Positions 21,501-52,300 of a DNA stretch of 64,000 nt are shown piece by piece. Each line of letters opens with the position of its first letter. The first letter of the stretch is position 1. The position numbers and the translations under genes were made by a program. The DNA is taken from assembly GCF_945952405.1 (NCBI RefSeq), contig NZ_CAMFIA010000004.1:124001-188000 (forward strand). Reading direction: 5' to 3'. The notes under the pieces were generated by a model, which was given only the letters and a program-made list of their open reading frames with translations, was not told the DNA's origin and ran no database searches. Source of the DNA: an uncultured Stenotrophomonas sp. GTDB taxonomy: Bacteria > Pseudomonadota > Gammaproteobacteria > Xanthomonadales > Xanthomonadaceae.

Positions 21501-23425
21501 CGCATCAGCTCGAAGCGCGCATTGCCATTGGAATCAGCACCGTCCTCCGGGTTGAACAGCGGGCGCACGCCAACCAGGGCGTTGGCCGGCCACATCACCC
21601 GCTTCACGGTGCGGGTGACGGTGCGGCCACCGGTTTCGTACAGGCTGCCGGACAGCACCACGGCGACCGGCGCCTTGGCCTTGGCGGCCTCTTCCGGCAA
21701 CGCCACGTCTTCGCGCAGCTGGCCATTGGCCGGCAGCGTGGTATCGATCACGTCCTTGGCTTCGCGCGGCAGCTGCAGGGTCGGGTCACCGAAGAAATAG
21801 CCCGGCAGCCCCTCCACCGGCTTCTGCTCGGCGGCCACCGCCATGCGCGCGGTGAAGCGGTTGCCGTCGGCCGGTGCCCCGTACAGATAGGCGCCATTGG
21901 CCTGCAGGCGCAGGTCTTCGCCCGGCTTGAGCGTCTTCTGCGCGCTGTCCAGGTCCAGCTTCATGCGCTCGGGCAGGAACTCCTCGATGCGCAGGGTCAT
22001 GCCCTGGATCGCTTCCTTGCTGGCCGGGTCGGTGCGGAACTCGACCTGCCAGCGCCCGGTCGGCGCCTCGGCGGGGATCACCTGCTCGAAACTGACGTAG
22101 CCCTGGTCGCCCGGCTGCAGGCGGGTCTCGCGGAAAGTCTTGCCGTCGGGTTGCTTCAGGCGCAGGAAGAGTGGCTGGACGCTCTTACCAGGCCCGCCGA
22201 CCGGCTTGCCGTCGTTGTCGCGCAGCAGCGCGGACAGGCGCACCGTCTCGCCCGGGCGGTACAGGTCGCGGCCGGACCACGCGTAGACGTCGAACCAGGC
22301 ATTGTCACGGCCGGCCACGGCGAATTCGCTCAGGTCCAGCGCGGGCTGGTTGAACGGCAGGAAGCTGGTGTCCTTGCCACTGCTGGCGACCAGCACGTGG
22401 GTGGCATCCAGGGTGTAGTTCAGCAGCGCATTGCCGTTGCCATCGGTACTGCCCTTCAGCACCACCTCGCCCTTGGCATCCAGCACGCGCAGGTCGATGC
22501 CCTTCAGCGGCGCGCCATCCTTCAGGCCGGCGGTGTGCACGAACAGCTTGTCCTTGTAGGCACGGGTGTGCAGACCGATGTCGCTGACCGAGAAGAACGC
22601 GGTATCGAACTCGCCTTCGTAATCACCGGTGCGCTTGAGCAGGGCGAAATACAGGCCCGGCTCCTGCAGTTCCTTGATGTCCTGGGTCGGCAGGTAGGTC
22701 AGCACCCGCTCGTTCTTCTTGCCGCCCAGGATGAAGCGATTGACATAGACCGGCTCGGCCAGCTTGTTGATCGGGCTGCGCTCGTAGTCACTGCTCAGCT
22801 CCCAGCTGCCACGGCGGCCGCCGCGCTGGTACTGGCTGAAGAAGGTCGGCAGGTCCTTCTCGCGCACGCGCAGGAACTCGACGTCCACTTCCGGCACGTT
22901 CACCGAGACCACCGGCAGGCCGCGGCTGTCCTTGGCCGGCAGCACGCTGCCCTGCGAGGCGAAGCCAACCACCGGCTTCAGCTCGCCGCTGAACACCTTC
23001 TGCTTCAGCTCCTTGCCCAGGCGGCTGCCATCGGCCGCCAGCAGGTCGGGCGAAACCACCAGGCTGAACTCCTTGCCGGCCTCGACGAACGGATAGCGCA
23101 GGGTCAGGCCGTCATCGGACAGGGTCCAGCTGCTGTCGTCGGTGCCGACCTTCTCCTCGAAGCGCACCAGCTTGTCGAAATCCTGGGTGCCGACCAGCGG
23201 TCGCGAGAACTCCAGCGCCAGCGACAGGCCTTCATTCTTCTGGTCCGGGTACGCGCGCAGCAGGGTGAATTCCTTCACCTGCTCGGCCTTGGTGGTGATC
23301 GCCTCACCACTGGCCTTGGGCAACTGCCCACTGTCGTTGCGGCAGCCGGCCAGGCCCAGCAACAGGCCTCCTGCCAGTACCGCCGCCGCCCATCCCCACC
23401 GCTTCCGCCGTGCCGGACCGCTCAT
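18503..23425 (-). CDS. Bacterial alpha-2-macroglobulin lipoprotein (YfhM-like)
   Basis: A 1640-residue periplasmic protease trap. The lipoprotein signal ends at the lipobox LAGC with Cys28. MG domains follow, and the thioester motif is intact: YPYGCAEQTTS near residue 1165, inside an alpha/alpha-toroid TED domain (residues about 1140-1430). The C-terminal receptor-like domain is present. On cleavage the thioester should crosslink the attacking protease. AAGGAG lies 7 nt before the ATG and TATAAT about 27 nt upstream. The gene precedes pbpC as in E. coli. Confidence 0.96.
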   Translation of the reverse strand: MSGPARRKRWGWAAAVLAGGLLLGLAGCRNDSGQLPKASGEAITTKAEQVKEFTLLRAYPDQKNEGLSLALEFSRPLVGTQDFDKLVRFEEKVGTDDSSWTLSDDGLTLRYPFVEAGKEFSLVVSPDLLAADGSRLGKELKQKVFSGELKPVVGFASQGSVLPAKDSRGLPVVSVNVPEVDVEFLRVREKDLPTFFSQYQRGGRRGSWELSSDYERSPINKLAEPVYVNRFILGGKKNERVLTYLPTQDIKELQEPGLYFALLKRTGDYEGEFDTAFFSVSDIGLHTRAYKDKLFVHTAGLKDGAPLKGIDLRVLDAKGEVVLKGSTDGNGNALLNYTLDATHVLVASSGKDTSFLPFNQPALDLSEFAVAGRDNAWFDVYAWSGRDLYRPGETVRLSALLRDNDGKPVGGPGKSVQPLFLRLKQPDGKTFRETRLQPGDQGYVSFEQVIPAEAPTGRWQVEFRTDPASKEAIQGMTLRIEEFLPERMKLDLDSAQKTLKPGEDLRLQANGAYLYGAPADGNRFTARMAVAAEQKPVEGLPGYFFGDPTLQLPREAKDVIDTTLPANGQLREDVALPEEAAKAKAPVAVVLSGSLYETGGRTVTRTVKRVMWPANALVGVRPLFNPEDGADSNGNARFELMRVDAAGTPQPAKGLKITLVRELRDYHWTFNDNRWDYDFTRRFENKETRTVDAGSSAVAFDFPVEWGEYRVDVFDPATGLTSRYPFRAGWSWGDDNRGLDARPDKVKLGLDKTGYKAGDTLEVTVTPPHAGKGILMVETDRMLYVQDIEAKPGSTFKIPVTADWERHDVYITALVFRGGSAPSKITPARAVGVVHVPMDRKGRTVAVGLVAPKQMRPEQDLPVTVSAPQLAGKTAHVTVSAVDVGILNITRFPVPDAGAHFFAQRRLGIDAYDIYSRVIESFDGGSGKLKFGGDMALQALPQAKRPTARVQTVDLFSGPVQLDAKGIARIRLKVPDFNGTLRVSALVYSDDQYGKRDVETVVRAPILAEASMPRVLAPGDRSTVTLDVQNFTGKPGQFNVRVDSVGPLNLGEGSRSLQLNADAKTTLSFPLSAREGHSVAKVRVRVDGNGFKADRSYDLPVRAAWPQVLRSQVRTLDPLAAVSLDNSLTDGLMPDSVNARLLVSPLPPIPFASALQGALNYPYGCAEQTTSKGYAALILDQATSSMLGADGLDAKTRRERMEGAFGRLASMQVANGNFSMWGDDGYVNPWLTPYITEFLLDAKDAGFAVPDNVLQKALNRLSEDLLSGGNPFYGQDDREKLKFANQAYSGYVLARVNRAPLGTLRTLYDNERGKAVGGLSLVHLGVALSLQGDAKRGQAALAAAFAKSSSERPSYFGDYGSAIRDDALMIALTHENKLAKPAWDARAVDLGRGLDARRNAGWMWLSTQEQVAIARLGKALAANQKALVAGELVIGGNTEAIGERKLFGRNFSAGELASGVRFTPQGQPPMFASIDVAGIPRTAPAPDTSVLGVERSYFGTDGKPWSPRPLKEGEALIVRVTVTADTTMPDALLTDLLPAGLEIENFNLGDAKQWADVVVDGITISDRGEAADTKHEEFRDDRYVAALKLSRGSKANVFYLVRAVTPGTYSVPPPLVEDMYRPQLRGVGRSNPTTITVVQP

Positions 23426-23432
23426 GTCGTCA

Positions 23433-23484
23433 CTCCTTGATCGAGGCGGCCATTATAGGCAGGCCGCGTCAAGGTGTTGACGCG
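23433..23484 (-). promoter_or_regulatory. Promoter and operator-like palindrome for the A2M-pbpC pair
   Basis: On the minus strand, a perfect TATAAT (23452-23457) precedes RBS AAGGAG (23433-23438). Just upstream is an 8-bp inverted repeat CGCGTCAA-n4-TTGACGCG (23465-23484) covering the -35 region. The nearest -35-like hexamers are poorly placed, which suggests activator or repressor control at the palindrome. It could also serve as the end of the upstream operon, whose last stop is 15 nt away. Confidence 0.55.
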
Positions 23485-23498
23485 AATTCGGCAATGGC

Positions 23499-26225
23499 TC
23501 AGCCCACGGCCAATACGCGGGTGGTACTGGCCGAGGTCCTGGTGTCGATCTGCAGCAGCCGGCCCTGCGGGTCGTGCAGCCACACGCGGCCGCCCTGCTC
23601 GCCTGCGCGGACCCCCACGCCGGGCGGCCATTCGATCTGTGCCAGCAGGCCACCATCGGCGACACGGACCAGGAAGCAATGGGTGGCGTCCGCCATCGGC
23701 ACCGTCACCAGCAGCCCCGAATCAAGCATCTTCATCGCGCCACCGGCCCGCACCTGCGCCGCCCCCGCGTCCAGCAAGCGGCAGGCATGACCGCCACTAC
23801 TGCTGCTGATCAGCAACTGCAGGCTGTCGCCGTCGCCTGCGGCCAGCTGCACCTGCAGCGCCCCATGCCGCGGGCAGGCCACCAGCTCGGCAACGTCCTG
23901 GATGGGCACCGGCTCCTGGGCAATGCGTCGACGGCGCTCCGTCGTATAGGCCCACGGCGAGACCCGGCCGGGCTCGGGCACCAGCCAGACCTCGCGTTCA
24001 CGGAAGAAGCCATGGGCAACCGGCGCCGCAGGAAGATCCACGTGCCACAGCACCTCATGCAGGCTGCTGCACACATCCAGCAGGCGGATGTCCCGCCCGC
24101 TCTGAACCGTCCAACGGGTGCCATCGAAAACAGGGGACATGGCATCGGCAACCAGGCTGCCCAGTTCCCGCGACTGCCCGGTCACCAGATCCAGGCGCGC
24201 CACATGGCAGACCTGCTCGCGTTCGGCCACGGCCAGCGCAACCTCGCCACTCTGCGCGAGAACCAGCCGGCTGGCAGGAGATCGATGACGCTGCAGCACC
24301 CTGCCGCGCGCGTCCAGCATCGCCACACCCGCTTCACCCAGCGCCACCAGGCAGCGCTCGCCCTCCAACACCACGACATCGCGGAGCGCCAGGGCCGAGC
24401 TGCCGGCAAGCTGCATGCGCAGCCGCAGCGGCTCACCGCGCTGGGCCAGCGGCTGGCTTGCCAGCTGCGGGGCCACGCTCCAGTCCGGCACATCGGCACT
24501 CAGCACCGTGTTCCTGGAGAGTTTCAGCAGGCCCTTGAGGCGCTCCAGCGGTACATCGGCCACGTTGGCCGCCCGGTCCGCCGCCAGTGCCGGCAGCAGG
24601 TGACCGGCCATCGCGCGGATGGCCGGCGTAGGCTGCTGCATCTGCAGCAGCGCGTCTGCCGCCGCCAGGCGTTGCGCTGGATCGCCGTCCGCAGCAACCA
24701 GTGCTTCGATCCGGCGCGCATGCTCGACCAGGGTTGCGGGCAACAGCGCGGTACGCACCATCAGCGCCCGCGCCGAAAGCAGCTGCCCGCTGCGCTCGGC
24801 ATCGAGCAACCAGCCCAACGCCTCTTCGCGGGCATCCGGCAATGGCCATGCGGTCTCCACCGCTTCCAGCCACTCCCCCTGCTGCTGGCGCTGTCGCGCC
24901 CATTCCAACCGCAGCCGGTCGGCCAGCGGCGCATGCTCATGCTGCAGCTGTACGACGGCTTCGGCGAAGGCATTGTCGCGCCGTGCCACCAGCACGGCGC
25001 GCTGGTGATCGCCTGCCAGCAGGAGCAAGCGGATCAGAACCGGCGCCGACAGGTCCCAGCCCACCGCCAGCTCGGCGGCCTCCCGCGCACGCCCGTGCCG
25101 GACCAGATAGTCCAGCGCTTCGGTGCGGGCGCCGAGAAGTTCAGCCAGCACGAACAGGGCCTCGTCCACCCGCCCACGGCGATCGAGCTGCTCGAACGCG
25201 GCACGATACATGCGCTGCAGGTTCTGCACGAGGTCATCGTCCAGCGCGATTGACGACCGCCCGCCCCTGCGTGCGCCCACCTGCAGCGAATCACGCCGCC
25301 CCGGAACGCCGAATGCCGGGCCGGTTTCTGGAACGGATGCATCCAGGTCCAGCGGGAGCGCATTGCGCAACCCCTCGTCGAGGTCTCCGCGTTCGAACAT
25401 GCTCATCATCCTGCGCAGATGTGCGCTCTGGCGATGGCCCAACGCCGTACCGATCCGGGTCAGCATGGCCAGCCGGGCCAGCTGCCGTCGCCAGGCCGAA
25501 GGACGCTGCGGCGGGTGCCGGGCCTGCAACCCGGAAGCCGGTTGACCACCGGAAGCGCGCGCGAGTTTTCCCGCCAGGCGTCCCAGCAGGCCGACGGTAG
25601 CGCCCGCCACGGCATCCCGTCCCCACCGCGCGGCGCGGCGCAGCACAGGCCCTTCCGCCGGGGCAGCAGGCTCACCCCGCATCACCTGCATCAGTGACTC
25701 GGTTGCCGCGCTGCGCGGCCCCACCTTGCCGCCGACCAGACCGCGCACATCGCTGCCCGGCAGTTTCACGGCCGCCGGCAATGGCGGTGGCCGCAGTGGA
25801 TACACCGTGGCCAGTGCCAGCGTGCTGAAATCCAGCAGCGACGACAGGTCGAGGGGCTCCCCCTCATGCAGCCTGCGCGGCTGTGGCTGCGCGCCCTGCA
25901 CCAGGACCAGATCGGCGCTGGGCAGCGCTCGACGCTCGCCGGCGGTCAGGGGAGCGGCATGCAGCACGCCATCGATGCGGCACAGCGCGAGGCCGGGGGC
26001 GCTGTCGCACTGCAGTGACAAGGGCTGTGCCAGGCACAGCAGGTCGCCATCGGCGAAACGCCATGCGCGGCTGCCGGTCGCCCAGGCCTGCAGCAGGCGC
26101 CGGTCGCGCTGCGCAACAGACACGCCCTGTGCCGGGAACCAGAAAGCGGCCACGCTCTGCCATCCCCGCCACAACGGATGACGCACATTGGATACCGCCA
26201 ATGCACTCCCCGACATCTCATCCAT
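23499..26225 (-). CDS. bpX6-like domain protein with helical middle and C-terminal propeller-like region
   Basis: Last gene of the MoxR operon; 908 residues, no signal peptide. The N-terminal 190 residues (RHPLWRGWQSVAAFW, FADGDLLCLAQPL) resemble the bpX6 domain of MoxR/vWA/beta-propeller ternary systems, recalled rather than searched. Residues about 350-560 are helical and TPR-like (AEAVVQLQHEH, EALFVLAELLGARTEALDYLV). The C-terminal third shows beta-strand repeats of propeller type (SGEVALAVAERE, GTRWTVQSGRDIRLLD). The start at 26225 overlaps the previous stop by 8 nt through ATGGATGA, the same type of join as MoxR to bpX5. It is probably a scaffold or target-recognition subunit (inference). 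Confidence 0.78.
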   Translation of the reverse strand: MDEMSGSALAVSNVRHPLWRGWQSVAAFWFPAQGVSVAQRDRRLLQAWATGSRAWRFADGDLLCLAQPLSLQCDSAPGLALCRIDGVLHAAPLTAGERRALPSADLVLVQGAQPQPRRLHEGEPLDLSSLLDFSTLALATVYPLRPPPLPAAVKLPGSDVRGLVGGKVGPRSAATESLMQVMRGEPAAPAEGPVLRRAARWGRDAVAGATVGLLGRLAGKLARASGGQPASGLQARHPPQRPSAWRRQLARLAMLTRIGTALGHRQSAHLRRMMSMFERGDLDEGLRNALPLDLDASVPETGPAFGVPGRRDSLQVGARRGGRSSIALDDDLVQNLQRMYRAAFEQLDRRGRVDEALFVLAELLGARTEALDYLVRHGRAREAAELAVGWDLSAPVLIRLLLLAGDHQRAVLVARRDNAFAEAVVQLQHEHAPLADRLRLEWARQRQQQGEWLEAVETAWPLPDAREEALGWLLDAERSGQLLSARALMVRTALLPATLVEHARRIEALVAADGDPAQRLAAADALLQMQQPTPAIRAMAGHLLPALAADRAANVADVPLERLKGLLKLSRNTVLSADVPDWSVAPQLASQPLAQRGEPLRLRMQLAGSSALALRDVVVLEGERCLVALGEAGVAMLDARGRVLQRHRSPASRLVLAQSGEVALAVAEREQVCHVARLDLVTGQSRELGSLVADAMSPVFDGTRWTVQSGRDIRLLDVCSSLHEVLWHVDLPAAPVAHGFFREREVWLVPEPGRVSPWAYTTERRRRIAQEPVPIQDVAELVACPRHGALQVQLAAGDGDSLQLLISSSSGGHACRLLDAGAAQVRAGGAMKMLDSGLLVTVPMADATHCFLVRVADGGLLAQIEWPPGVGVRAGEQGGRVWLHDPQGRLLQIDTRTSASTTRVLAVG

Positions 26226-28035
26226 TGGACGCTCCTCGCCGGCCATCCAACAGCGTCAGCAGGCTTCTGCCGGCAACGGTCATCACCTGCAGCCGGCCAT
26301 CGATATCCACCCACGCAAGGCGTCGTCCACAGGGCGACACGCTGGCGGTCGCGACAGCGACCGGGGATCGGTGCAGCATCCGTTGTCCCTGTGGATGGAT
26401 CAGCATCAGGCTCCGACGGTCACTGCCCAGCACCAGCAAACGCGGGCTGGCTTCATGTTCATCCTCTTCAAGCAGGCCAATGACCTTGAAACCAGGCGCA
26501 AGACGAACGTCCTGGCGGTCAACCACGGTTTCGCGTTGCACACGGTAGAAGCCACACAGGCGCCCTCCGTCGCCGTCGGGCCGCTCCAGCGCGAAGCACA
26601 GCGGGTCGCTCCAGCTGCGTGGGGCCGCCAACCAGACGTTCTTCAGATTGCTTACGCCTGGCAGCATGATGATGACCTTGGACTTGCCCAGGCGGCTCCG
26701 CCGGCTGATCACCACTTCCGCGGCCCGGTACTGCGCGAACAGCAGCTCCCCCTGCCCGGCCTCGCGCATCGCCACGACCACTTCAGCCAGCCGCACCAGC
26801 TCAGGCGTGCCGCCAGCCTTGCGCGACCATTGCAGCAGGCGGCCGGCATTGTCGACCACATGCAGGTTGCGCTGATCATGCCCGGTGAACACCTCGATCG
26901 CCGGTAGCCAGCGGCCGACACCCGGGTGGATCGTCAGCGCGTCCGCGGAAGGTCGCCGTATCACCCCGCCTGGACGTTGCCAGAAAACCAGATGGGCATC
27001 GTCGCCGACGACCCCTCCCAGGTTCTTTTCCCCCACGTGCGCACAGAGCATGCGTTGTCCCCTGGTCCAATCCTGCAACCGCAGGATCGGAGGCTTGCGC
27101 TGGTTGTCATGCCCGATCCGCAGGATGCATGCCGAATGCGCCTGTCCTTCGGCGAAGGCGACGGCAACATTGCGCCCACTGCTACTGAACTGTGGGGGCT
27201 GGCGCAGCGACAACCGCGACGCCGTGGACATCACCCGATCGCCTTTCACCACCTGCAGCCATTGCCCCTGCAGCAATCGCGATGACGCCATCGGCGCCGG
27301 CAATGGCAGGGTCAGTTCGCGCGGGCGCGCAGCCGGTCCCAGCGCAACCTGCAGGGTCGCGTCGAAGGTGCGGCGCGCGCGGACCACATGGCTTGCGCCG
27401 AGCACCTGTGCGGCACTGCTGTCGGCCGCCAGCAGCCACAGCTCCGCCACGCCGGGCTGCTGCTCCTGCAGATCCACGGCCCAGTCCCGACACTGCGCGG
27501 GGCCCGCGGCTTCATGGCTGCGCTCATGCAACAGCCTGAGCAGCATGTCCTGGGCCGAAGCATCGTGCAGCTCACCCGGGCGGTGCAGCACTCCCCACAG
27601 CAGCCGGGCACGGCTGTCGCGTGCACGACGCTGCAACAGGATCCACATCGCCACGTGCACCAGGCGAGGCTCTCCCCATTGGCGCGGGCCGGCATCGAAC
27701 AGGGCAACCACGCACGGTTCGTTGCGCACCTGATGGAACTGGGGCGCCAGGAACAGATGTTCGCCCTGCGCCGCGCGCCGGATGAACTCGTCGGGCATTG
27801 CGTCGGCCAGCCCCCACTCGCTGAGCAGCAAGCGCTCATAGCTGCCACGGGCGGCGACTCCGGAATAGCCGTCGGCAGTGGCCGGTGCGTGCTGCACCTG
27901 GCTGATTCCGCTGCCCAGCAGGGGATCCAGCCGCAGCAGCAGGTCGCCCAGCATCGCCGCAATCTCCGGGTCGAACACCTGCAACCAGGGCTGCCAGGGC
28001 AGCAGGTCGCGCGGCAGCTCCAGCACAGCGGTCAT
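26218..28035 (-). CDS. Degenerate vWA-like domain fused to a beta-propeller
   Basis: Third gene of the operon; 605 residues, cytoplasmic. The N-terminal part holds RGSYERLLLSEWGLADAMP, the conserved vWA-partner lead-in, and then CVVALFDAGPRQWGEP. Asp114 aligns with the first MIDAS Asp but DxSxS is replaced by DxGxR, so metal binding is doubtful. From about residue 250 onward the protein looks like a beta-propeller (GRNVAVAFAEGQAHSACILR, DNAGRLLQWSRKAGG, CGRRLAWVDIDGRLQVM). It would bridge the MoxR ATPase to a target. It overlaps the bpX5-like stop by 4 nt (ATGA). bpX2 is an alternative name for the N-terminal part. Confidence 0.75.
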   Translation of the reverse strand: MTAVLELPRDLLPWQPWLQVFDPEIAAMLGDLLLRLDPLLGSGISQVQHAPATADGYSGVAARGSYERLLLSEWGLADAMPDEFIRRAAQGEHLFLAPQFHQVRNEPCVVALFDAGPRQWGEPRLVHVAMWILLQRRARDSRARLLWGVLHRPGELHDASAQDMLLRLLHERSHEAAGPAQCRDWAVDLQEQQPGVAELWLLAADSSAAQVLGASHVVRARRTFDATLQVALGPAARPRELTLPLPAPMASSRLLQGQWLQVVKGDRVMSTASRLSLRQPPQFSSSGRNVAVAFAEGQAHSACILRIGHDNQRKPPILRLQDWTRGQRMLCAHVGEKNLGGVVGDDAHLVFWQRPGGVIRRPSADALTIHPGVGRWLPAIEVFTGHDQRNLHVVDNAGRLLQWSRKAGGTPELVRLAEVVVAMREAGQGELLFAQYRAAEVVISRRSRLGKSKVIIMLPGVSNLKNVWLAAPRSWSDPLCFALERPDGDGGRLCGFYRVQRETVVDRQDVRLAPGFKVIGLLEEDEHEASPRLLVLGSDRRSLMLIHPQGQRMLHRSPVAVATASVSPCGRRLAWVDIDGRLQVMTVAGRSLLTLLDGRRGASNG

Positions 28036-28457
28036 GCCATCTCCCGGCAGCGGCGCAGCTGCTGCATCCAGTCCAGGCTTACAGGAAGCAGCCCCGACAG
28101 CGGCACCACCAACGCCGGTTGTGCCAGCAGCAGCAGCGGCTCGGTGCGGTAGCGTGCAGCCAGCCCGGCTGCCAGCAGATCAACCGCCACGTCCGGCTGC
28201 TGGGTCGTCGGCAGCCACAGCGAAGCCGCTACCGGGCTTGGCGCAACGTACTGCACGCCCTCCACCCAGGGCAGGCGATCCGCCGGCGCAGCCAGCATCA
28301 GCAGGTCCGGCCCGGCCACCGCCAGCAGGCCGGGGTCGGCATTGCGCTCCAGCCTGCGCTGCAGCACTGCCAGCAGCGCGTGTGCGGGTTCCCCCAGTGC
28401 AATCACGCCTTGTGCGGCAGGCGGCTCGACGGTTGCCCGCCAGCCCCACTCATGCAT
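28032..28457 (-). CDS. bpX5-like small protein of the MoxR operon
   Basis: Second gene of the operon; 141 residues. Diagnostic segments are LPWVEGVQYVAPSP, LWLPTTQQPDVAVDLLAAGL and PLLLLAQPALVVPL, which I recall from the bpX5 domain of predicted MoxR ternary systems. The ATG at 28457 (MHEWGWRATVE) overlaps the MoxR stop by 8 nt, and its stop overlaps the next start by 4 nt. The frame extends upstream inside the MoxR gene but that part is only a shadow. No catalytic motif is visible; probably a structural subunit. Confidence 0.75.
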   Translation of the reverse strand: MHEWGWRATVEPPAAQGVIALGEPAHALLAVLQRRLERNADPGLLAVAGPDLLMLAAPADRLPWVEGVQYVAPSPVAASLWLPTTQQPDVAVDLLAAGLAARYRTEPLLLLAQPALVVPLSGLLPVSLDWMQQLRRCREMA

Positions 28458-29559
28458 CGGCACTGACCTGCTCCGCCAGCTGCCCCCGGGCCGCGGCCAG
28501 CTCGGGCCCCAATGCCGCCCGGGTGAAGTTGGCATCGATCTCGCGAAGGACCGCCTCGGCACGACGTCCGCGCTCCGCAGCGTCGGCCTGCAGGCACTCC
28601 TGCGCGGCCTGCAGCAGCCGGTCCTCCCGCGAGCGCGGTTGCAGTACGGCCGCTTCCGCAGCACTGCGCAGGATCGGGTTGGCCGTTGCAAGCAACGAAT
28701 CACGAAGCAGGTCCTGCGCCTTGCGCTGTGCTTCGGCCGTGGGCAGCACATACATCAGCGGCCACAGGTCCGCCTCGGTCGCAGACTCTCGGCCCGCCAG
28801 TACGGCTGCTGCGGCAACCAGGCGCTGCGTCTTGACGATCCGCCGGTCGGACAGTTCCAGCCCGTCTGCACGCAGTCGCCGCAGTTCCTGCGCCAGTCGT
28901 GGACGCACCCGCGACATATCCACCTGCGGCACCCGCGTGGCCAGCAGATCCAGATCCGCCAACGATGTCGACGGCGGCAGCGTGGTCGACTCGCTGGCCC
29001 AACCGCCTTCCAGCAGCAGCTCCAGCCGATCGTCGCTGACCGGCCCGACGAACAGCCGCAGCATGAAGCGATCGGCGAATGCTGCCAGTGCCGGGTCTTC
29101 CGGCAGGCCGTTGGCAGCCGCCACGCAGACCCGTAGCGGGCAGGCGATATCGGTATGGCCGCGGCGGAAGCGCCGTTCGTTGAGAACGCCCAGCAGCGTA
29201 TTGAGGATGGCGGTGGAGCCGAGGAAGACCTCGTCCAGGAACGCCACGTCCGCCTCGGGCAGCATGCCCTGCACATCGGCTTCGACACGCCCTTCGCGCA
29301 GGCGGCGCAGGTCGATCGGTCCAAACAGTTCGGACGGTTCGGTGAACCGGCCCAGCAGGTATTCGAAGTAGCGCCCGCCCAGGCCTGCCGCAACCCGCCG
29401 CACCACCGCACTCTTGGCCGTACCTGGTGGTCCAACCACCAGCAGGTGTTCGCCGGCCACGGCCGCAAGCAGCATCAGTTCAGCCAACTGTTCGCGGTCA
29501 ATCAGACCGCGGGTTGCATGATGGACGGTATCGCGCAGGCGAGCAGCAGCATGGGGCAT
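28450..29559 (-). CDS. MoxR-family AAA+ ATPase
   Basis: First gene of the four-gene operon; 369 residues. It has Walker A GPPGTAKS (43-50), Walker B VAFLDE (105-110), the MoxR insert with ERRFRRG, a sensor-1 Asn at AAANGLPED (Asn150), and FADRF with the candidate arginine finger Arg163. The C-terminal lid includes the helical AAA_lid (DRRIVKTQRLVAAAAVLAGR). It is closer to the RavA-like branch than to the short MoxR/BatA branch. MoxR ATPases act as remodelling chaperones with vWA partners; here the partner is the degenerate vWA-propeller protein two genes downstream. Confidence 0.93.
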   Translation of the reverse strand: MPHAAARLRDTVHHATRGLIDREQLAELMLLAAVAGEHLLVVGPPGTAKSAVVRRVAAGLGGRYFEYLLGRFTEPSELFGPIDLRRLREGRVEADVQGMLPEADVAFLDEVFLGSTAILNTLLGVLNERRFRRGHTDIACPLRVCVAAANGLPEDPALAAFADRFMLRLFVGPVSDDRLELLLEGGWASESTTLPPSTSLADLDLLATRVPQVDMSRVRPRLAQELRRLRADGLELSDRRIVKTQRLVAAAAVLAGRESATEADLWPLMYVLPTAEAQRKAQDLLRDSLLATANPILRSAAEAAVLQPRSREDRLLQAAQECLQADAAERGRRAEAVLREIDANFTRAALGPELAAARGQLAEQVSADA

Positions 29560-29717
29560 GGTGGCATCCGGCCGGGTTCAAGCAGGCAGCATCCGCCGCA
29601 CTGCCGGGTGAAAGGCCCTGCACTTTAGCCGAGTGCGATGACCGGCGATAGCACGCGCGTATACGCCCGCCACAGGGCCCTCCATGCCATGTCGGCTGAT
29701 ACCCGTAGCGGCATCCG

Positions 29718-31178
29718 CTACTCGGGCAGATACAGGTCCACGTAGTCGGTCACTGGCTTCGCGGCCAGCGCGACCGGGTCCAGCGAGGCGGCCAGGATGC
29801 GCTGCTGCTGGGCGGTCGGGAAGCGGTGGGCCAGGTGCCGGCGGAACTTGTCCATCAGCAAGGGGATTCCCTCCTCGCGGCGACGGGCGTGGCCGAGCGG
29901 GTACTCCACCAGCACTTCCGGCAGTTCGCTGCCATCGCTGAAGCGCACGCTCAGGCCATTGGCAATGCTGCGCTTGTCCGGGTCCAGGTAGTCGGCACTG
30001 AGCTGTGCGTCCTCATGGCAGGCCATCTTCGCGCGCAGCGCGTCGATGCGCGGGTCGGCGGCAACGTCATCCTCGTAGTCCTCGGCCACCAGCCGTCCAT
30101 GCAGCAGCGCGATGGCGACCATGTACTGCACGCAGTGGTCGCGGTCGGCCGGATTATGCAGCGGCCCCTGCTTGTCGATGATGCGGATGCAGGCCTGCTG
30201 GGTGCGGATGGCGATATGCGCGATGTCCTCGACCCGCCGCCCTGCCGCACGCAGCTGCTGGTGCAGCACGATGGCCGCCTCCACTGCGGTCTGGCCATGG
30301 AACTCGGCCGGGTAGCTGATCTTGAACAGCACGTTCTCCATCACGTAGCTGCCCAGCGGTCGCCCCAGGGTCAGCGCCTGGCCGTGCATGGACACCGCCT
30401 CGAAGCCCCAGGTGGGCGCACTCAACACGCTGGGATAACCCATCTCGCCACTGGCTGCCATCAGCGCCAGCCGCACGCCACGGCTGGTCGCGTCGCCCGC
30501 CGCCCAGCTCTTGCGCGAGCCGGTGTTCGGCGCGTGCCGGTAGGTCCGCAGCGCCTGGCCATCGACCCAGGCCAGCGACAGCGCATTGAGCATGCGCTCG
30601 CGATCCAGCCCGAGCAGATGTGCCACGACCGCCGTGGTCGCCACCTTGACCAGCACCACATGGTCGAGCCCGACCCGGTTGAAGGAATTCTGCAGCGCCA
30701 GCACGCCCTGGATTTCGTGCGCCTTGATCATCGCCAGCAGCACGTCATGCAGGGTCGGCGGCGGCCGGCGCAGGGCCTGCGCGTTGCGCCCCAGCCAATC
30801 GCAGACGGACAGGATGCCACCGAGGTTGTCCGAGGGGTGGCCCCATTCGGCCGCCAGCCAGGTGTCGTTGAAATCGAGCCAACGCACCATCGCGCCAAGA
30901 TTGAACGCGGCCTGCACCGGATCGAGTACGTAATGGGTGCCCGGCACGCGTGCGCCGTTGACCACGCTGATGCCCGGCACCAGCGGCCCCAGCAGCTTGC
31001 TGCAGGCCGGGAAGGACAGTGCTTCCAGGCCACAGCCCAGCGTATCGAGCAGGCAATGGTGCGCGGTCTGGAACGCCAGTGGCGAGTCGATGCGCGCCTC
31101 GCGCACGTAATCGACGATGTCGACCAGCAGCGCATCCCACGCTGCACGCTCGTTGGAAGGGGGCTGGCTGCTCGACAT
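29718..31178 (-). CDS. prpD: 2-methylcitrate dehydratase PrpD
   Basis: Dehydrates 2-methylcitrate to 2-methyl-cis-aconitate in propionate breakdown. About 486 residues of the MmgE/PrpD fold, with WLDFNDTWLAAEWGHPSDN, KAHEIQGVLA and YRHAPNTGSRKSWAAGDATSR. AGGAG precedes two adjacent ATGs; the second (31178) has the better 7-nt spacing, the first (31181) is possible. Last gene of the prp operon, 17 nt after prpF. The operon also encodes the alternative AcnD/PrpF route, so both dehydration systems are present. Confidence 0.96.
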   Translation of the reverse strand: MSSSQPPSNERAAWDALLVDIVDYVREARIDSPLAFQTAHHCLLDTLGCGLEALSFPACSKLLGPLVPGISVVNGARVPGTHYVLDPVQAAFNLGAMVRWLDFNDTWLAAEWGHPSDNLGGILSVCDWLGRNAQALRRPPPTLHDVLLAMIKAHEIQGVLALQNSFNRVGLDHVVLVKVATTAVVAHLLGLDRERMLNALSLAWVDGQALRTYRHAPNTGSRKSWAAGDATSRGVRLALMAASGEMGYPSVLSAPTWGFEAVSMHGQALTLGRPLGSYVMENVLFKISYPAEFHGQTAVEAAIVLHQQLRAAGRRVEDIAHIAIRTQQACIRIIDKQGPLHNPADRDHCVQYMVAIALLHGRLVAEDYEDDVAADPRIDALRAKMACHEDAQLSADYLDPDKRSIANGLSVRFSDGSELPEVLVEYPLGHARRREEGIPLLMDKFRRHLAHRFPTAQQQRILAASLDPVALAAKPVTDYVDLYLPE

Positions 31179-45774: not shown

Positions 45775-48700
45775 CTACCGTCCCATCACCCTGGCGATCG
45801 CTTCCACCAGCAGTTCACCGGTCACCGGCTTGCGCAGGAAGCCGCCGATGCCGGCCGCTTCCACCTGCTGCTGCAGGTCGGGATCGGTGCGTGCGGTCAC
45901 CGCCAGCAGCGGCAGCATGTAGCCCTGGTTGCGCAGGTGCTGGGCCAGTTCGAAGCCACTCAGGCCCGGCAGGTCCAGGTCGAGCAGTCCGACATCGAAG
46001 TCACCGGCACTGATCTCGCGCAGGGCTGCCAGGGCATGGCCGGCGTGCACCACCTCGTGCCCGCGCGCGTTCAACAGCCCGCGCACCACGTCGGCCACGG
46101 TGGCGTCATCCTCGACCAGCAGCACCCGCAACGGCGGCATGTTGGCGGCCTCCTCGCGATGCGCCGCTTCCTCCGCGCCGGCATTGGCATCGACCACCAG
46201 CGGCAACGGCAGGGTCACGCCGAAGCAGGTACCACGGCCCAGCTGGCTTTCCACCTGGATGCGGCCCTGCATCGCCTGCGCCAGCTCGCGGCAGATCGCC
46301 AGGCCCAGGCCACTGCCGCCGTACTGCGCGGCGGTGCGGGCGCCGTCGGCCTGTTCGAAGCGGCGGAACAGGCGCTGCTGCTGTTCCTGGCTGATGCCCG
46401 GCCCGGTGTCGCGCACTTCGAACTGCAGCGCGCGCAGCTCGGCATCGCTGCGCGCATGCAGGGTGATGGTGCCGCGGCTGGTGAACTTGACCGCGTTCGA
46501 GAGCAGGTTGAGCAGGATCTGTCGCACCCGCATCGCATCGCCGGTGGCCTGCAGGCCAGGCGGCAGCTGGTTGTCGAGGGTGAAGCGCAGGCCCTTCTGC
46601 GCGGCCAGCGGCCCCATCAGCGCGGCCAGGTCCTGCAGCAGGCAGCTCAGTGCGAACGGCTTGGACTGCAGCTCCAGGCGGCCGGATTCGATCCGCGCCA
46701 GGTCCAGCGCATCGTTGACCAGATGCAGCAGGTGTTCGCCGGCGTGGCGGATCGACTGTGTATAGCCGCGCTGCTGCGGGTCCAGCGGCGAGGCCAGCAG
46801 CAGTTCGCTCATGCCGAGTACGCCGGTCATCGGCGTGCGGATCTCGTGGCCCAGGTTGGCCAGGAACCGGGTCTTGGCCGCCGAGGCCTGTTCGGCCAGT
46901 TCCTGCTTGTGCAGGGCCAGCTGGTAGGCGTGCCGGCGCTGCAGGCGACGGCGGTACAGCCAGGCGAACCAGCTGGTCAGCAACAGCGCGATCGAGGCCA
47001 GCACCAGCAATCCGGACAGGCTGCGCCACCACGGCGGCTGCACGCGGAACTCCAGGCTCTGCACCCGCGACCAGACGTGGTCGGCCGAACGTGCCTGCAC
47101 TTCCAGCCGATAGCTGCCCGGCGGCAGGCGCGAGAACAGGCGCTCGCCGGCCGGCCCCACTTCAACCCAGTCCGGATCGTAGCCGGCCAGCCGGTAGCGG
47201 TAGCTGTTGGACGCCGAATCGGCGAACGACAGCAAGCGCGCGACAATGCGCAGATCACGATCACCGTCGGCGATCTGCAGGGGCGTGTCGTGGGTCAGGT
47301 CGAGCACCTGCTCGTTGCGGCGCACCTCGACCCGTTCGATCACCAGCGGCGCGCGACGCACCGACGGCCGCACCTGCTCCGGGTCGAACACCACCACCCC
47401 GGCCGGGGTGCCCGCCACCAGGTGGCCATCACCCGACATCACCAGGGTGTGCTCGCGGAATTCCTGGCTGGGCAGGCCATCATGCACGCCGTACAGGCGC
47501 ACGCTCTGGCCATCGGCGCCAATCCGCACCAGACCACGCGCACTGGTGGCCCAGGCCACGCCCTGGGCATCGACCACCAGCCCGGACGCGGAAATCGCCG
47601 GATAGCCCTGCTCGGCGCCGATCACCGCCTGCCGTTCCAGCCGGCCCTGGCTCCAGCGGTAGCGCGAAACGCGGCCATCCTCGGACAGCCAGACCTGGCC
47701 ATCGCGGCCCACATGCAGTGCGTGGATCGGCGTTGCTGGCGCCCCCGGCACGGGCTGGAAGCGCTCGCTTTCCGGCAACCACTGCAGCAGGCCCCGGCTG
47801 CTCGCCAGCCAGATGTGATCCTGCGGCCCGCATTCCACGTCCAGGTTGAGCTGGCCCTGCTGCAGGCCGCGCTGGCCATTTTCCAGCTGGCGGCGCAGGC
47901 GCCCGTCGAGGTCGCGCTGCTGCAGGCCCGATGGCAGCATCAGCCACAGGCTGTCGCCATCACAGGTCATCATCGATTCGATGACCCCTTCCATGGTCGC
48001 ATCGGCACCGGCATCGCGGCCCCAGCGGCGCAGATCGCGATGCTTCGGGTCATAGCGCAACAGCGCGTCGTTCGAACCGATCCAGACCTGCCCGCGGCGG
48101 TCCTCGCGCACCGAGGTCAGCCAGTGCATGCCGTTGACCCAGGTGCGGTGCTGTTCGATGCTGCCGGTCTTCGGATCGAACCGGTCCAGCGCACCGTGGC
48201 TGCCGACCGTCCAGATCCCGCCATTGCTGGAAGGGCTGGTGCCCAGCACGAAGGCATTGCGCAGCGAGCGGGGATCGTCCTCCAGCCGCGACAGCACCGA
48301 GAACTGCCACCAGCGCGGCAGCAGGTGCCACAGTCCGGCATTGGTACTGGCCAGCCAGATACCGCCCTCACGATCCTCGTAGGCACCGGTCCAGTTCGGA
48401 CGCACCGGACCACGTGCCACCGCACTGTACAGCGGCACGGTCTGGTACTGGCCATCGACCGCGCGGCCGAGGCCGGTGCGGGTATCCAGCCAGTTCCCGC
48501 CCTGTTCGTCGCGCAGCATCATGCCCAGCACCTGCTCCCCTTCGGGAAGCTTCCACGGCGGTGCTTCGAAGTGACCGTCGGGGCGGCGCACGGTGGCGCC
48601 AGCCATCGTGCTGATCCACAGGCTGCCGTCCGGCTCGGCGGTCAGGCCATTGATCAGCAGGCTGGGAATGACATCGGCACCGATACGCTCGAAATCGGTG

Positions 48701-49302
48701 CCGGTCCAGCGCGCGACGCCATGCTTGGTACCGATCCACAGGCTGCCGTCAGCCAGCGTCGCCAGATACGGAACCGACGCGGCCGGCAGGCTGCGCGGAT
48801 TGTTCGCCTCCGGCAGGAAGCGCTGCAGCCGGTCCTGGTTGTCCAGCCGGTACAGGCCGCCCTCATGGGTCCCGAACCAGATCGAACCATCCGGCGTGGT
48901 CGCCAGGCTCCAGACCGTATTGGTCCCCATCAGCGGCTGGCTGCTGCGGTCGTAGAAGTGCAGTTGCCGGCGGTCGGCCGACATCCGCACCAGGCCGGCA
49001 TTCTCGGTACCGATCCAGAGCTGGTTGCGCGCATCGACCAGCACCGTCCAGATGCGGTTGTCGCGCAGCCCATCCTCCGAACGCCAGATCCGGTAGTTGC
49101 GGCCGTCGTAGCGGGCAAGGCCATCGTTGGTGGCGATCCACAGGTAGCCGTAGCGGTCCTCGGCCATGCGGTTGACGGTGTTGGACGGCAGGCCATCGAA
49201 CACCGTCACCTGCCGCGGGCTCGGCGGCACCGGCTGTGCGGCGGCGGGTGACAGGCAGCACAGGAGGACCAGCAGCAGCATTGCCGCCCGCAGATACGCC
49301 AC
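45775..49302 (-). CDS. Hybrid sensor kinase with periplasmic two-component propeller (paralogue 1)
   Basis: About 1175 residues: a signal peptide or TM anchor (LRAAMLLLVLLCCLSPAAAQ), a periplasmic double Reg_prop beta-propeller with many WIATNDGLARYDG-type repeats, a Y_Y_Y domain, a TM helix (about 758-780), HisKA with His819 (NLGHEIRTPMTGVLG), HATPase ([13 protein letters not shown]) and a C-terminal receiver ([22 protein letters not shown]). It senses an unknown periplasmic ligand; no partner regulator is adjacent. The GTG at 49302 is chosen because AGGAGG sits 6 nt upstream; a longer TTG start would overlap the upstream gene's stop by 4 nt. Confidence 0.9.
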   Translation of the reverse strand: MAYLRAAMLLLVLLCCLSPAAAQPVPPSPRQVTVFDGLPSNTVNRMAEDRYGYLWIATNDGLARYDGRNYRIWRSEDGLRDNRIWTVLVDARNQLWIGTENAGLVRMSADRRQLHFYDRSSQPLMGTNTVWSLATTPDGSIWFGTHEGGLYRLDNQDRLQRFLPEANNPRSLPAASVPYLATLADGSLWIGTKHGVARWTGTDFERIGADVIPSLLINGLTAEPDGSLWISTMAGATVRRPDGHFEAPPWKLPEGEQVLGMMLRDEQGGNWLDTRTGLGRAVDGQYQTVPLYSAVARGPVRPNWTGAYEDREGGIWLASTNAGLWHLLPRWWQFSVLSRLEDDPRSLRNAFVLGTSPSSNGGIWTVGSHGALDRFDPKTGSIEQHRTWVNGMHWLTSVREDRRGQVWIGSNDALLRYDPKHRDLRRWGRDAGADATMEGVIESMMTCDGDSLWLMLPSGLQQRDLDGRLRRQLENGQRGLQQGQLNLDVECGPQDHIWLASSRGLLQWLPESERFQPVPGAPATPIHALHVGRDGQVWLSEDGRVSRYRWSQGRLERQAVIGAEQGYPAISASGLVVDAQGVAWATSARGLVRIGADGQSVRLYGVHDGLPSQEFREHTLVMSGDGHLVAGTPAGVVVFDPEQVRPSVRRAPLVIERVEVRRNEQVLDLTHDTPLQIADGDRDLRIVARLLSFADSASNSYRYRLAGYDPDWVEVGPAGERLFSRLPPGSYRLEVQARSADHVWSRVQSLEFRVQPPWWRSLSGLLVLASIALLLTSWFAWLYRRRLQRRHAYQLALHKQELAEQASAAKTRFLANLGHEIRTPMTGVLGMSELLLASPLDPQQRGYTQSIRHAGEHLLHLVNDALDLARIESGRLELQSKPFALSCLLQDLAALMGPLAAQKGLRFTLDNQLPPGLQATGDAMRVRQILLNLLSNAVKFTSRGTITLHARSDAELRALQFEVRDTGPGISQEQQQRLFRRFEQADGARTAAQYGGSGLGLAICRELAQAMQGRIQVESQLGRGTCFGVTLPLPLVVDANAGAEEAAHREEAANMPPLRVLLVEDDATVADVVRGLLNARGHEVVHAGHALAALREISAGDFDVGLLDLDLPGLSGFELAQHLRNQGYMLPLLAVTARTDPDLQQQVEAAGIGGFLRKPVTGELLVEAIARVMGR

Positions 49303-49397
49303 CGATTGCCTCCTCACGCTGCCCTGATCATTCCCGCGCTGCGGGCGTCGGCATGGTAAACCGAAAGTCCCGCCGTTCACGCCCGGCCGCACGGTGT

Positions 49398-52300
49398 TCA
49401 AGTCGCGGTCTGGCGTTTGGTGCGGGCCTGGGCGATGGCGGCCACCAGCATGTCACCGGTCACCGGTTTGCGCAGGAAACCGTCGAAACCGGCGTCCAGC
49501 ACCTGCGTCTCGGCATAGGCATCAGACCGTGCGGTGACGGCAACCAGCGGCAGCTCATAGCCCAGCGTGCGCAGTTGGCGGGCGATGGCGGTGCCGTCCA
49601 GCGCCGGCAGGTCGAGGTCGAGCAGCCCGACATCGAAGCCGTCGGTGGCAACTTCCGACAGTGCGCCGAGGCCATGCAGTACATGCACCACGTCATGCCC
49701 ACGGCCACGCAGCAGGCCGGCGATGACTTCGGCCACGGTGGCATCGTCCTCGACCAGCAGGATGCGCAGCGGCGGCAGCACCGGCAGCGCCGGAGCCTCC
49801 CCCGCAGCGCTGGCCGCCTGCCGGGTCCAGGGCAACGGCAGGCACACCTGGAAGCGCGCGCCCTTGCCCGGTTGGCTGTCCACTTCGATACGCCCGCCCA
49901 TCGCCACGGCCAGTTCCTGGCAGATCGCCAGGCCCAGCCCGCTGCCGCCATAGCGCGATGCCGTGCGCGGCCCTTCGGCCTGCTCGAAGCGGTGGAACAG
50001 GCGCTCCTGCTGCTCGGCGTTGATGCCCGGGCCGCTGTCGTACACCTCGAAACAAAGACCGGCGCCGTTGTCCTCCAGCCGCACCGCCAGCCCGACATGG
50101 CCGCGCTCGGTGAACTTGATCGCATTGCCAAGCAGATTCAGCAGGATCTGGCGCACGCGCATCTCGTCGCCGCTGATGCTGACCGGCCCCGCAGGATCCT
50201 CGCCGCGCTGGAATTCCAGCGCGCGCTGCTTCGCCATCGGCTGCGTCAGCGCCTGCACCTGGTCGAGCAGGCCGGCCAGATCGAACGGGCGCAGGTCCAG
50301 TTCCAGCCGCCCCGCCTCGATGCGCGCAAGGTCCAGCGCATCGTTGACCAACCGCAGCAGATGGCTGCCGGCCTGCTGGATCGACCCCGCATAGCCGCGC
50401 TGCACCGCGTCCAGCGGCGTCGCCAGCAGCAGCTCGCTCATGCCCATCACGCCGGTCATCGGCGTACGCACCTCGTGGCCCAGCGTGGCCAGGAACCGGC
50501 TCTTGGCCTGCGAGGCCTGCTCGGCCAGCTCCTGCTTGTGCACCGTCAACTGCCATTGCTGGCGACGACGCAGGCGCGCGCGGATCGACCAGGCCAGGAT
50601 GAGCAGCAGCAGCGAACCGATCAGGATGTAGCCGAAAATCGCCAGGCCACTGCGCCACCACGGCGGCAGCACCTTCACCTGCAACCGCTGCGAAGGCGTC
50701 CATGTGCCACTTGCGGTGGCCGCCTGCACTTCGACGATGTAGCTGCCGGTAGGCAGGCGCGAAAGCGTGCGCTGGCCGTCACCGCCCTGCTCCACCCAGT
50801 TCTGGTCATACCCGCGCACCCGGAACCGGTAACGGTTGCCCTGCGGGTTGGCATACGACAGCAGGCGTGCGTCGATCTGCAGATCACGATCATCCGGCCC
50901 CAGCAACAGGGTGCCGGTGCCCGGCAGCGGCTGCCAGCCGCGTGCATCGTCGCGGCGCACGCGCACCTCGGCAATCACCAGCGACGACGCGGGCAGCGCA
51001 ACGTCGGCGGCATTCACATCGAAGGCAACCAGGCCGGTCTGGGCCACCGCAAGTACGCGACCATCGGCACTCACCGCCGGCGGCCGGCTGGTGAATTCGG
51101 CATCGGACAGGCCATCGCGCTCGTTGAACAGCTGCAGGCGTCGTGCCTTGGGGTCCCAGCGCAGCAGGCCACGCGGCGTGGTCGCCCACAGCCGGCCGTT
51201 GTCGGCCAGCGCCAGGCCGCCCATGCTGACCGGGGGCACCCCGGCGCTGCCATCGATGCGCTGGATCAGGCGCAGGCTCATGCCATCCCACTGGTAACGT
51301 TCAAGCGCGCCCTGGCGGGCCAGCCACAGTTGTTGTGGATCAACCCACACCAGATCGTAGATCAACCCCCGCGAGACACCCGCCACCGCCTCGAAGCGCC
51401 CCGCCTGTTCGCGCCACAGCCCCATGTCTCCCATCACCCAGGCCTTGCCGTGGGCATCGAAGCGGATCTGCTCGATCGGGGAGTCGGCCGCCTTGCGGAA
51501 GTCGTCCAGCGGGTAGCTGCGCAGCACACGGCCCTCCGCGTTGCGCTGCTGCAGGCCCAGGTTCATCACCGACAGCCAGACCGTGCCATCGGGCGCCTGC
51601 CGCATCAGGTCGATGCGCTGGCGCAGGTCCGCGCCGCCATCGATATGCCAATCGTGCAGCGCGCCGGTGCGCGGGTCATACACGCTGATACGGCCGGCAC
51701 GGCCCAGCCACAGGCGCCCGTCCGGCCGCGGCAGCACCGACCACACCGCACCACTGCCGATCTCGCGCTCACTGGCCAGCAGGTGCAGCGTGCCCCGGGC
51801 ATCCAGCTGGTACACGCCATGCGCCGAACCTACGTAGTAGTTCAGGCCGTCGCTGGCCGCGCTCAGCAGGTACTGGCTGTCCAGCGGTTTGCCATCGAGC
51901 TGGTTCCAGATCGAGAAACGGCGCCAGTCCGGTGGCAGGTAGGCCAGGCCCTGGGTCAGCAGCGCCACCCACAGACCGCCCTCATGGTCCTGCAACAGAT
52001 CAAGCACCCCACTCTGCGCGGTGAGGAAGCCACTGCCACGGTCGCCTTCGAGCCGCCACAGCGCAGCGGCATCGCCGCGCAGCAGACCGTCGGACGTACC
52101 TGCCCAGTAGCCGCCCTGGCGGTCGGCCAGCACCAGCGCCGAACGCAGCCCGGTGCTGCCACTCCAGCGCGGGCGACTGACCCGGTCCTGCGCATCGATG
52201 CGGTACAGCCCGTCATTCTGGCTGCCGATCCAGATCGAGCCATCCGGATCACGGCTCAGCCGCAGCACGCTCAACGCGCCCAGCTCGTGCGGCGCCACGC

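Follow-up and report, generated by a model that had tools for sequence, protein, structure and literature searches.

A rare four-gene Stenotrophomonas operon with a MoxR ATPase and two predicted beta-propellers: a candidate remodelling machine of a predicted conflict class

Introduction

A MoxR-family AAA+ ATPase that is encoded in one tight operon with two predicted beta-propeller proteins raises the question of what such a motor would act on. An operon of this kind, with four genes in the order MoxR, bpX5, a 605-aa protein and a bpX6 protein, occupies the minus strand from 29559 to 23499 in a 64,000-nucleotide stretch (hereafter the window; contig NZ_CAMFIA010000004.1, positions 124,001 to 188,000) of an uncultured Stenotrophomonas sp. 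(assembly GCF_945952405.1). The four proteins likely join into a single remodelling machine that is powered by ATP and belongs to the predicted MoxR-vWA-beta-propeller conflict class, a reading to which we give a probability of about 0.5. What is new here comes from 73 complete operons, namely the rarity of the operon, the empty sites, the lack of a constant fifth gene, the lack of a phage match and a contrast in evolutionary rate. The class was predicted in 2020 for conflict roles, and the pattern of variation points to surfaces worth swapping or mutating, which makes the prediction testable. If the propellers were indeed specificity modules, the operon would represent a form of defence in which no nuclease, protease or toxin is recognised, as well as a bacterial parallel to AAA+ machines acting on propeller proteins, as in the pair of Midasin and Rsa4.

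Gene organization and protein families

The four genes overlap by 8, 4 and 8 nt, exactly as the initial annotation of this DNA had it: the MoxR/bpX5 junction reads ATGCATGA, the bpX5/third-gene junction is ATGA, and the third-gene/bpX6 junction reads ATGGATGA. All four parts were found in the same order at 72 of 80 loci fetched elsewhere (73 with the window), the other eight being truncated by contig ends; these are the best 80 of 122 loci from GTDB genomes, obtained with two patterns in the bpX6 helical repeat, a choice that favours close relatives. At the three junctions, 66, 68 and 72 of the 73 operons, respectively, have a start codon at -15 to +20 nt from the preceding stop. A search for sigma-70-type promoters gave none upstream of MoxR, its sole match preceding yfhM, and neither a tRNA in the 64-kb window nor an Rfam RNA within 23000-30000 was found. 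The GC content of the operon (66-72%, against 64-72% in the window) rules out recent foreign DNA by this measure, and its GC skew is somewhat more negative than that of the direct neighbours.

The family assignments of the initial annotation were largely borne out by profile searches. The first protein carries both Walker motifs (Walker A GPPGTAKS and Walker B FLDE), the P-loop GxxxTAKS is present in 70 of the 73 operons, and the first, second and fourth proteins match PF20030, PF19921 and PF19922, respectively, with the scores in Table 1 against a Pfam cut-off of 27 bits for each family. PF20030 alone is a weak class marker, because matches above the cut-off also occur in 12 of 14 control genomes and for three further MoxR-family ATPases of the window genome (L002-L004 on contigs C10, C20 and C8; 45-62 bits, best 61.7). 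The AlphaFold2 model of the bpX6 protein (pLDDT, the predicted local distance difference test, 78.9) comprises the bpX6 domain, a disordered linker, a helical repeat and the propeller that had been predicted.

For the third protein, which had been described as vWA-like plus propeller, the propeller was borne out and the vWA part stays tentative. Within the filters of HMMER, Pfam gave no match up to E = 10, while the AlphaFold2 model (mean pLDDT 87.3, from an alignment of 82 rows) combines an alpha/beta domain at the N-terminus with a beta-propeller at the C-terminus; the homologues numbered 145 at E<=0.001, and 81 from the best 120 of these were aligned. Comparison of the N-terminal domain with a profile of 24 PF13519 vWA sequences gave a probability of 0.2% and an E-value of 0.29, which is not significant, and the order of strands and helices in the modelled domain is compatible with vWA. 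In a profile search against PDB sequences, the named matches were WD40-type propeller proteins or aligned to the propeller part. The two propellers of the operon are not clearly related to each other (profile comparison, probability 5.4%). The N-terminal part of the third protein holds conserved charged residues and may harbour a so-far unrecognised activity.

Pfam families, gene order and propeller models together support the membership of the operon in the MoxR-vWA-beta-propeller ternary systems, as the initial annotation had suggested; these systems are subsystem 4 of Kaur et al. (2020, eLife 9:e52696, PMC7159879), where, in the passages on this class, the carriers named include Xanthomonas and Pseudomonas and the systems are called enigmatic for want of conventional effectors. 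As far as those passages describe it, the class shares with the window a GxxxTAKS MoxR, a divergent and possibly vWA-like protein with a C-terminal propeller, a third component with a variable N-terminal part, a helical repeat and a propeller, and an extra small bpX5 gene. Several differences were also found. The vWA domain in the window is not detectable by Pfam, the first propeller was read as seven blades where those passages give about four, and the third component described there has a membrane-spanning segment that is lacking in its counterpart here. Moreover, the same passages suggest the variable N-terminal region of the third component as a possible effector and place the variability in this region, whereas among the relatives of the window the strongest variability of folded parts lies in the propellers. 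Related MoxR-vWA systems are the subject of PMC12839542 and PMC10907252, as far as their consulted parts go, and the portion of PMC9677677 on Pseudomonas syringae clade 2b-a describes a single region of genome plasticity that contains bpX5 and bpX6 groups alongside groups like ravA and 6ND4.

Other MoxR systems resemble the operon less closely. RavA-ViaA of Escherichia coli likewise pairs a MoxR-clade ATPase with a partner (a vWA protein in ViaA), and RavA is the nearest NCBIfam model for the window MoxR; however, a RavA orthologue was rejected, as NF010054 scored 164 bits against a cut-off of 681. ViaA is not known to have a propeller or a bpX partner. NorQ-NorD and other MoxR-vWA metal-insertion chaperones also combine an AAA+ motor with a vWA co-chaperone, and they serve one conserved host client that is encoded nearby, whereas no constant neighbour gene stands beside operons of the window type. 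The VMAP and iSTAND ternary conflict systems are built on a MoxR-vWA core with variable partners, as passages of PMC7159879, PMC12839542 and PMC10907252 have it, but carry VMAP or iSTAND proteins, often with enzyme effectors, none of which was recognised in the window operon. A known PADLOC defence system was rejected as well, none of the four proteins having a convincing match.

The membrane-spanning segment appears to divide the class. Defined as a 19-residue stretch with a mean hydropathy of at least 1.6, a transmembrane-like segment occurs in the linker of 41 of the 73 bpX6 proteins, 31 of which have two; it is present in 27 of 28 Pseudomonadaceae, the exception (L113) having split frames, and in 1 of 23 Lysobacterales. 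The linker of the window protein holds no stretch of this kind, only an amphipathic one. The segment is taken to characterise some members of the class and not others, and the membership of the window operon to rest on its other features. Because it lacks the membrane-like segments of its Pseudomonas relatives, the machine of the window would be cytosolic; two such segments would leave both protein ends on one side of the membrane, so that the rest could be cytosolic in both versions.

Table 1. Features of the operon and its site, in window coordinates
Feature	Position	Strand	Remarks
MoxR-family AAA+ ATPase (bpMoxR)	28450..29559	-	369 aa; PF20030 288 bits
bpX5 protein, predicted adaptor	28032..28457	-	141 aa; PF19921 124 bits, residues 3-136
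Third protein (degenerate vWA-like alpha/beta domain and C-terminal beta-propeller)	26218..28035	-	605 aa; AlphaFold2 model
vWA-like segment of third protein, residues 96-245	27301..27750	-	conserved DAGPxQ around D114
First propeller (third protein), residues 272-600	26236..27222	-	read as seven blades
bpX6 protein	23499..26225	-	908 aa; PF19922 164 bits, residues 14-180
Disordered hypervariable linker of bpX6 protein, residues 135-241	25503..25823	-	pLDDT mostly <50
Helical repeat (solenoid) of bpX6 protein, residues 330-578	24492..25238	-	AlphaFold2 model
Second propeller (bpX6 protein), residues 595-905	23511..24443	-	blades 4-6 hypervariable
Accessory segment between prpD and yfhM	23499..29717	-	pairwise comparison with 8 relatives lacking the operon

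Rarity and genomic site

The comparison across Stenotrophomonas genomes that the initial annotation had proposed found the operon to be rare and not universally conserved: bpX6 is present in 2 of 91 genus genomes and in 4 of 369 class genomes (at most 9 candidates being scored per genome at the class level), and bpX5 in 7 of 149 family genomes, the window genome being counted each time. The operon lies between prpD and yfhM, the latter an alpha-2-macroglobulin gene. A prpD match was found in 59 of the 91 genus genomes (its own included), and 46 of the 58 others were inspected at this site, which is empty in 43 of them, with prpD followed directly by yfhM at a distance of 96-361 nt; one (L133) has another neighbourhood at prpD. 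When compared with eight operon-free relatives, similarity ends a few nt from the prpD stop and returns 1-16 nt past the bpX6 stop, and this boundary leaves the TATAAT box of yfhM intact. The second carrier of the genus, in whose genome no prpD was found, likewise has the operon directly before yfhM; its proteins are 75% (MoxR), 50% (bpX5), 38% (third protein) and 50% (bpX6) identical to those of the window, and yfhM is 84% identical.

In the remaining two relatives, the prpD-yfhM site holds a different gene of about 380 codons in the opposite orientation with weak propeller matches (L132:13229-14377, plus strand; L134:1539-2675, minus strand). Its N-terminus looks WGR-like by eye, and no WGR match was obtained in Pfam or NCBIfam. 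Propeller genes may have a hot spot at this site.

Sequence change concentrated in the partners of MoxR

MoxR is the slowest-evolving part of the operon, with a median pairwise identity of 67.8%, followed by bpX5 (44.0%), the bpX6 protein (38.8%) and the third protein (32.3%). Within the third protein, the vWA-like part reaches 44.0% and the propeller 23.2%, and this first propeller is the most variable folded part of the operon proteins; within the bpX6 protein, the values are 37.9% for the bpX6 part, 15.4% for the linker (columns 180-245), 49.7% for the helical part (columns 245-585) and 31.9% for the propeller. In 17 disjoint syntenic pairs, each with at least four orthologous neighbours, divergence was expressed relative to the median of the neighbours and amounted to 0.65 for MoxR (above 1 in 3 of 17 pairs), 2.94 for bpX5 (9 of 11), 2.93 for the third protein (15 of 17) and 3.01 for the bpX6 protein (16 of 17). 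Compared with single flanking orthologues, the third protein was the more divergent in 155 of 178 cases and the bpX6 protein in 162 of 178, against 63 of 178 for MoxR. The median ratio of non-synonymous to synonymous substitution rates (dN/dS) in 242 close pairs, 202-235 of them usable per gene, was 0.066 for MoxR, 0.201 for bpX5 and 0.259 for both the third protein and the bpX6 protein, and that of neighbour genes was 0.112 (532 comparisons). Rarity together with fast-changing partners would be an indirect sign of a conflict role.

The variation is also placed unevenly on the propellers, whose strand phasing was assigned by hand from the model strands. In 73 sequences of the first propeller, the DA and BC loops on one face vary more than the AB and CD loops (mean entropy 3.11 against 2.59; 13 against 12 loops; two-sided permutation p 0.003), and the same bias holds within Pseudomonadaceae (p 0.024) and Lysobacterales (p 0.009). 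Loop lengths follow, ranging over 4-25 residues for BC3, 2-19 for BC5 and 3-17 for DA4, with most AB and CD loops nearly constant; the exceptions are AB2 and AB5, which vary, and DA1, DA3, DA6 and BC6, which do not. The propeller of the bpX6 protein, which served as an internal control, has no such bias (p 0.89 overall, 0.22 in Pseudomonadaceae, 0.86 in Lysobacterales), so the bias does not extend to all propellers here; its hot sector is formed by blades 4-6.

Strains seem to have exchanged some of their propeller segments. Among ten pairs chosen by eye, Lysobacter L072/L074 has a synonymous divergence (dS) of 0.49-0.75 and a non-synonymous one (dN) of 0.41-0.68 in the first propeller, against a dS of 0.19-0.22 in MoxR and the vWA-like N-terminus, and Pseudomonas L093/L094 has a dS of 0.07-0.09 and 96-100% identity in the bpX6 propeller, against a dS of 0.47-0.97 in the remainder of the operon. 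When the same measure was repeated on all 17 disjoint pairs, the dS of a segment exceeded twice that of the flanks in 6 of 17 pairs for propeller 1, 5 of 16 for propeller 2, 6 of 17 for the helical part and 1 of 17 for MoxR; raised dS is thus not confined to the propellers, as the helical part exceeds this level as well. The clearer signal in these alignments is the elevated dN/dS of the propellers, with medians in the 17 pairs of 0.29 (propeller 1) and 0.25 (propeller 2) against 0.19 (helical part) and 0.06 (MoxR). The propeller patterns are read as recombination combined with fast amino-acid change.

Unlike most pairs, Proteus L107/L131 has an operon dS mostly of 0.11-0.48 (helical part 0.70) that is below that of its neighbours (0.88), as if the operon had moved recently between two Proteus lineages.

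Proposed function and alternative explanations

In the proposed machine, the propellers would serve as specificity modules that bind a fast-changing target, such as a phage or rival protein, the vWA-like domain and bpX5 would couple them to the MoxR ring, and ATP hydrolysis by MoxR would pull apart or sequester the bound target, in the cytosol for the version of the window. Outside MoxR, no conserved catalytic set was recognised by eye among the bpX5 and bpX6-domain columns conserved in 95% of sequences, and remodelling or sequestering is therefore taken as the effect itself. Phage defence seems somewhat likelier than rivalry between bacteria. A more specific version, which we advance only tentatively, is an immune machine without an enzyme effector, in which the propellers would be exchangeable specificity modules that gain new specificities by segment swapping, much as restriction systems swap specificity subunits, and the MoxR ring would pull the captured protein apart. 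Propeller 1 would then read a fast-changing foreign protein through its variable top face and propeller 2 through blades 4-6, and the window would encode a cytosolic form of the membrane-anchored Pseudomonas machine.

A number of observations weigh against the conflict reading. The vWA comparison, in which D114 stood opposite the metal-ion-dependent adhesion site (MIDAS) Asp, did no better than controls, 4 of 11 unrelated alignments obtaining a lower E-value. The fold searches list propellers and bear on propellers only, so that the absence of a vWA chain from them is no evidence against vWA. In PADLOC, the best E-value was 0.0094 for MoxR, with nothing at E<=1 for the other three proteins, and none of the ten operon neighbours in the window matched at E 1e-5, so that a defence island in the window was rejected; of ten neighbours tested at other loci, one matched well (an IetA-like ATPase) and one weakly. 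No match to bpX6 was found in 50,697 phage records, and 72,556 plasmid records gave one partial match over 30% of the query. The rate evidence has limits of its own: the flanking yardstick, made of reciprocal best hits among genes that we called ourselves, may favour conserved genes, the third protein is not faster than its neighbours in L107/L131 and L086/L099, nor is bpX6 in L080/L081, and dN/dS averaged over pairs stays below 1 for whole genes and segments, so that diversifying selection is not proved. Besides, fast change could track a fast-changing host client, and no experiment on the propeller class was found in the open-licence literature searched. Finally, the tree of the joined proteins mostly follows taxonomy, unlike many mobile defence systems; this, together with the lack of a defence island in the window, weakens a mobile-defence reading.

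A dedicated chaperone for an accessory host complex, similar to RavA-ViaA or NorQ-NorD, is a real rival, although we consider it less likely than the conflict reading; the propellers would hold the client, MoxR would complete or repair it, and the rarity of the operon would be the rarity of the client. Such a role agrees with the studied MoxR-vWA pairs, which serve complex assembly or metal insertion according to the passages of PMC7159879 on them, as well as with the taxonomic tree and with flanks common to close relatives. However, no client gene recurs as a constant neighbour, the RavA model falls far below its cut-off, and in 14 of 17 pairs MoxR does not exceed the flank median in rate while its partners change about threefold faster, which would be unexpected for a conserved client.

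The exchange-like propeller segments and the single variable face would also suit a device for rivalry or kin recognition, whose propellers recognise competitor-delivered proteins or self-markers rather than phages. Many carriers in Lysobacter, Myxococcus and Pseudomonas, all represented among the loci, are predatory or live on plants and in soil. The recurrent neighbours, judged by eye and with signal peptides not searched for, include no recognised gene for secretion, a toxin or immunity, and we regard this explanation as rather improbable. Less probable still is relaxed constraint, under which the partners would be slowly decaying and their fast change would mean little: frames are split at two loci (L113 and L104) and most genus members lack the operon, but every fetched locus not cut by a contig end keeps all four parts, whole-gene dN/dS is near 0.26, and the variation is biased to a face in one propeller and to a sector in the other rather than even.

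Phylogeny and gene neighbourhood

In the tree of the joined proteins, Pseudomonadaceae (28), Xanthomonas (6), Variovorax (4) and Oxalobacteraceae (4) form clades, and the window operon is sister to that of Stenotrophomonas sp. PS02289 (L052) with a support of 1.0. Lysobacter (8), Sphaerotilaceae and Chitinibacteraceae do not form clades; the Lysobacter operons are scattered within a clade of 23 together with those of Stenotrophomonas, Xanthomonas and Tahibacter, and Proteus pairs with Achromobacter across classes. We read the history as one in which the operon was mostly inherited at its site and often lost, with some transfers besides.

No constant fifth gene accompanies the operon, the commonest immediate neighbour family (LysR-like) occurring at 9 of 81 loci, and there is thus no obvious client operon. 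Other immediate neighbour families (at most 6 loci each) are confined to one or two genera, except one that is found in 3 loci. Within 10 kb, and with family labels assigned by eye, LysR-like regulators recur at 21 of 81 loci (19 of them in Pseudomonadaceae), receiver-domain proteins at 16 and histidine kinases at 8, at varying distances and on both strands. In 4 of 5 Myxococcota loci, other genes separate MoxR from bpX5 at a distance of about 2-3.4 kb; in four Myxococcota loci (L123, L126, L128 and L129), a convergent receiver-domain gene starts 10-16 nt past bpX6.

Two loci possibly represent decaying copies: in Pseudomonas sp. KNUC1026, the third gene and bpX6 are apparently split into overlapping frames (L113:7854-9990 and L113:9932-12939), and in Pseudomonas sp. 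TH15, bpX5 is apparently split (L104:7653-8149). In Lysobacter, the divergently oriented neighbour of the operon is an AAA ATPase, which has 96 bits to PADLOC IetA at L073:4945-6309, with relatives in L061, L072, L074 and L084. At L060:1486-6493 in Pseudoxanthomonas, a complete STM4011-STM4015 cluster stands next to the operon in divergent orientation; it consists of two radical SAM proteins, a hydrolase, STM4014 and STM4015, the five families being confirmed in this locus. STM4015 was also confirmed in Xanthomonas L056, and protein clustering gave the same cluster families in L057, L058 and L068; the cluster is possibly a partner or shares a common insertion site with the operon. Elsewhere in the window, two tandem hybrid sensors of about 1,200 aa are encoded on the minus strand at 45775-49401 and 49398-52943 with a 4 nt overlap, and they comprise regulator propellers, Y_Y_Y, histidine kinase and receiver domains.

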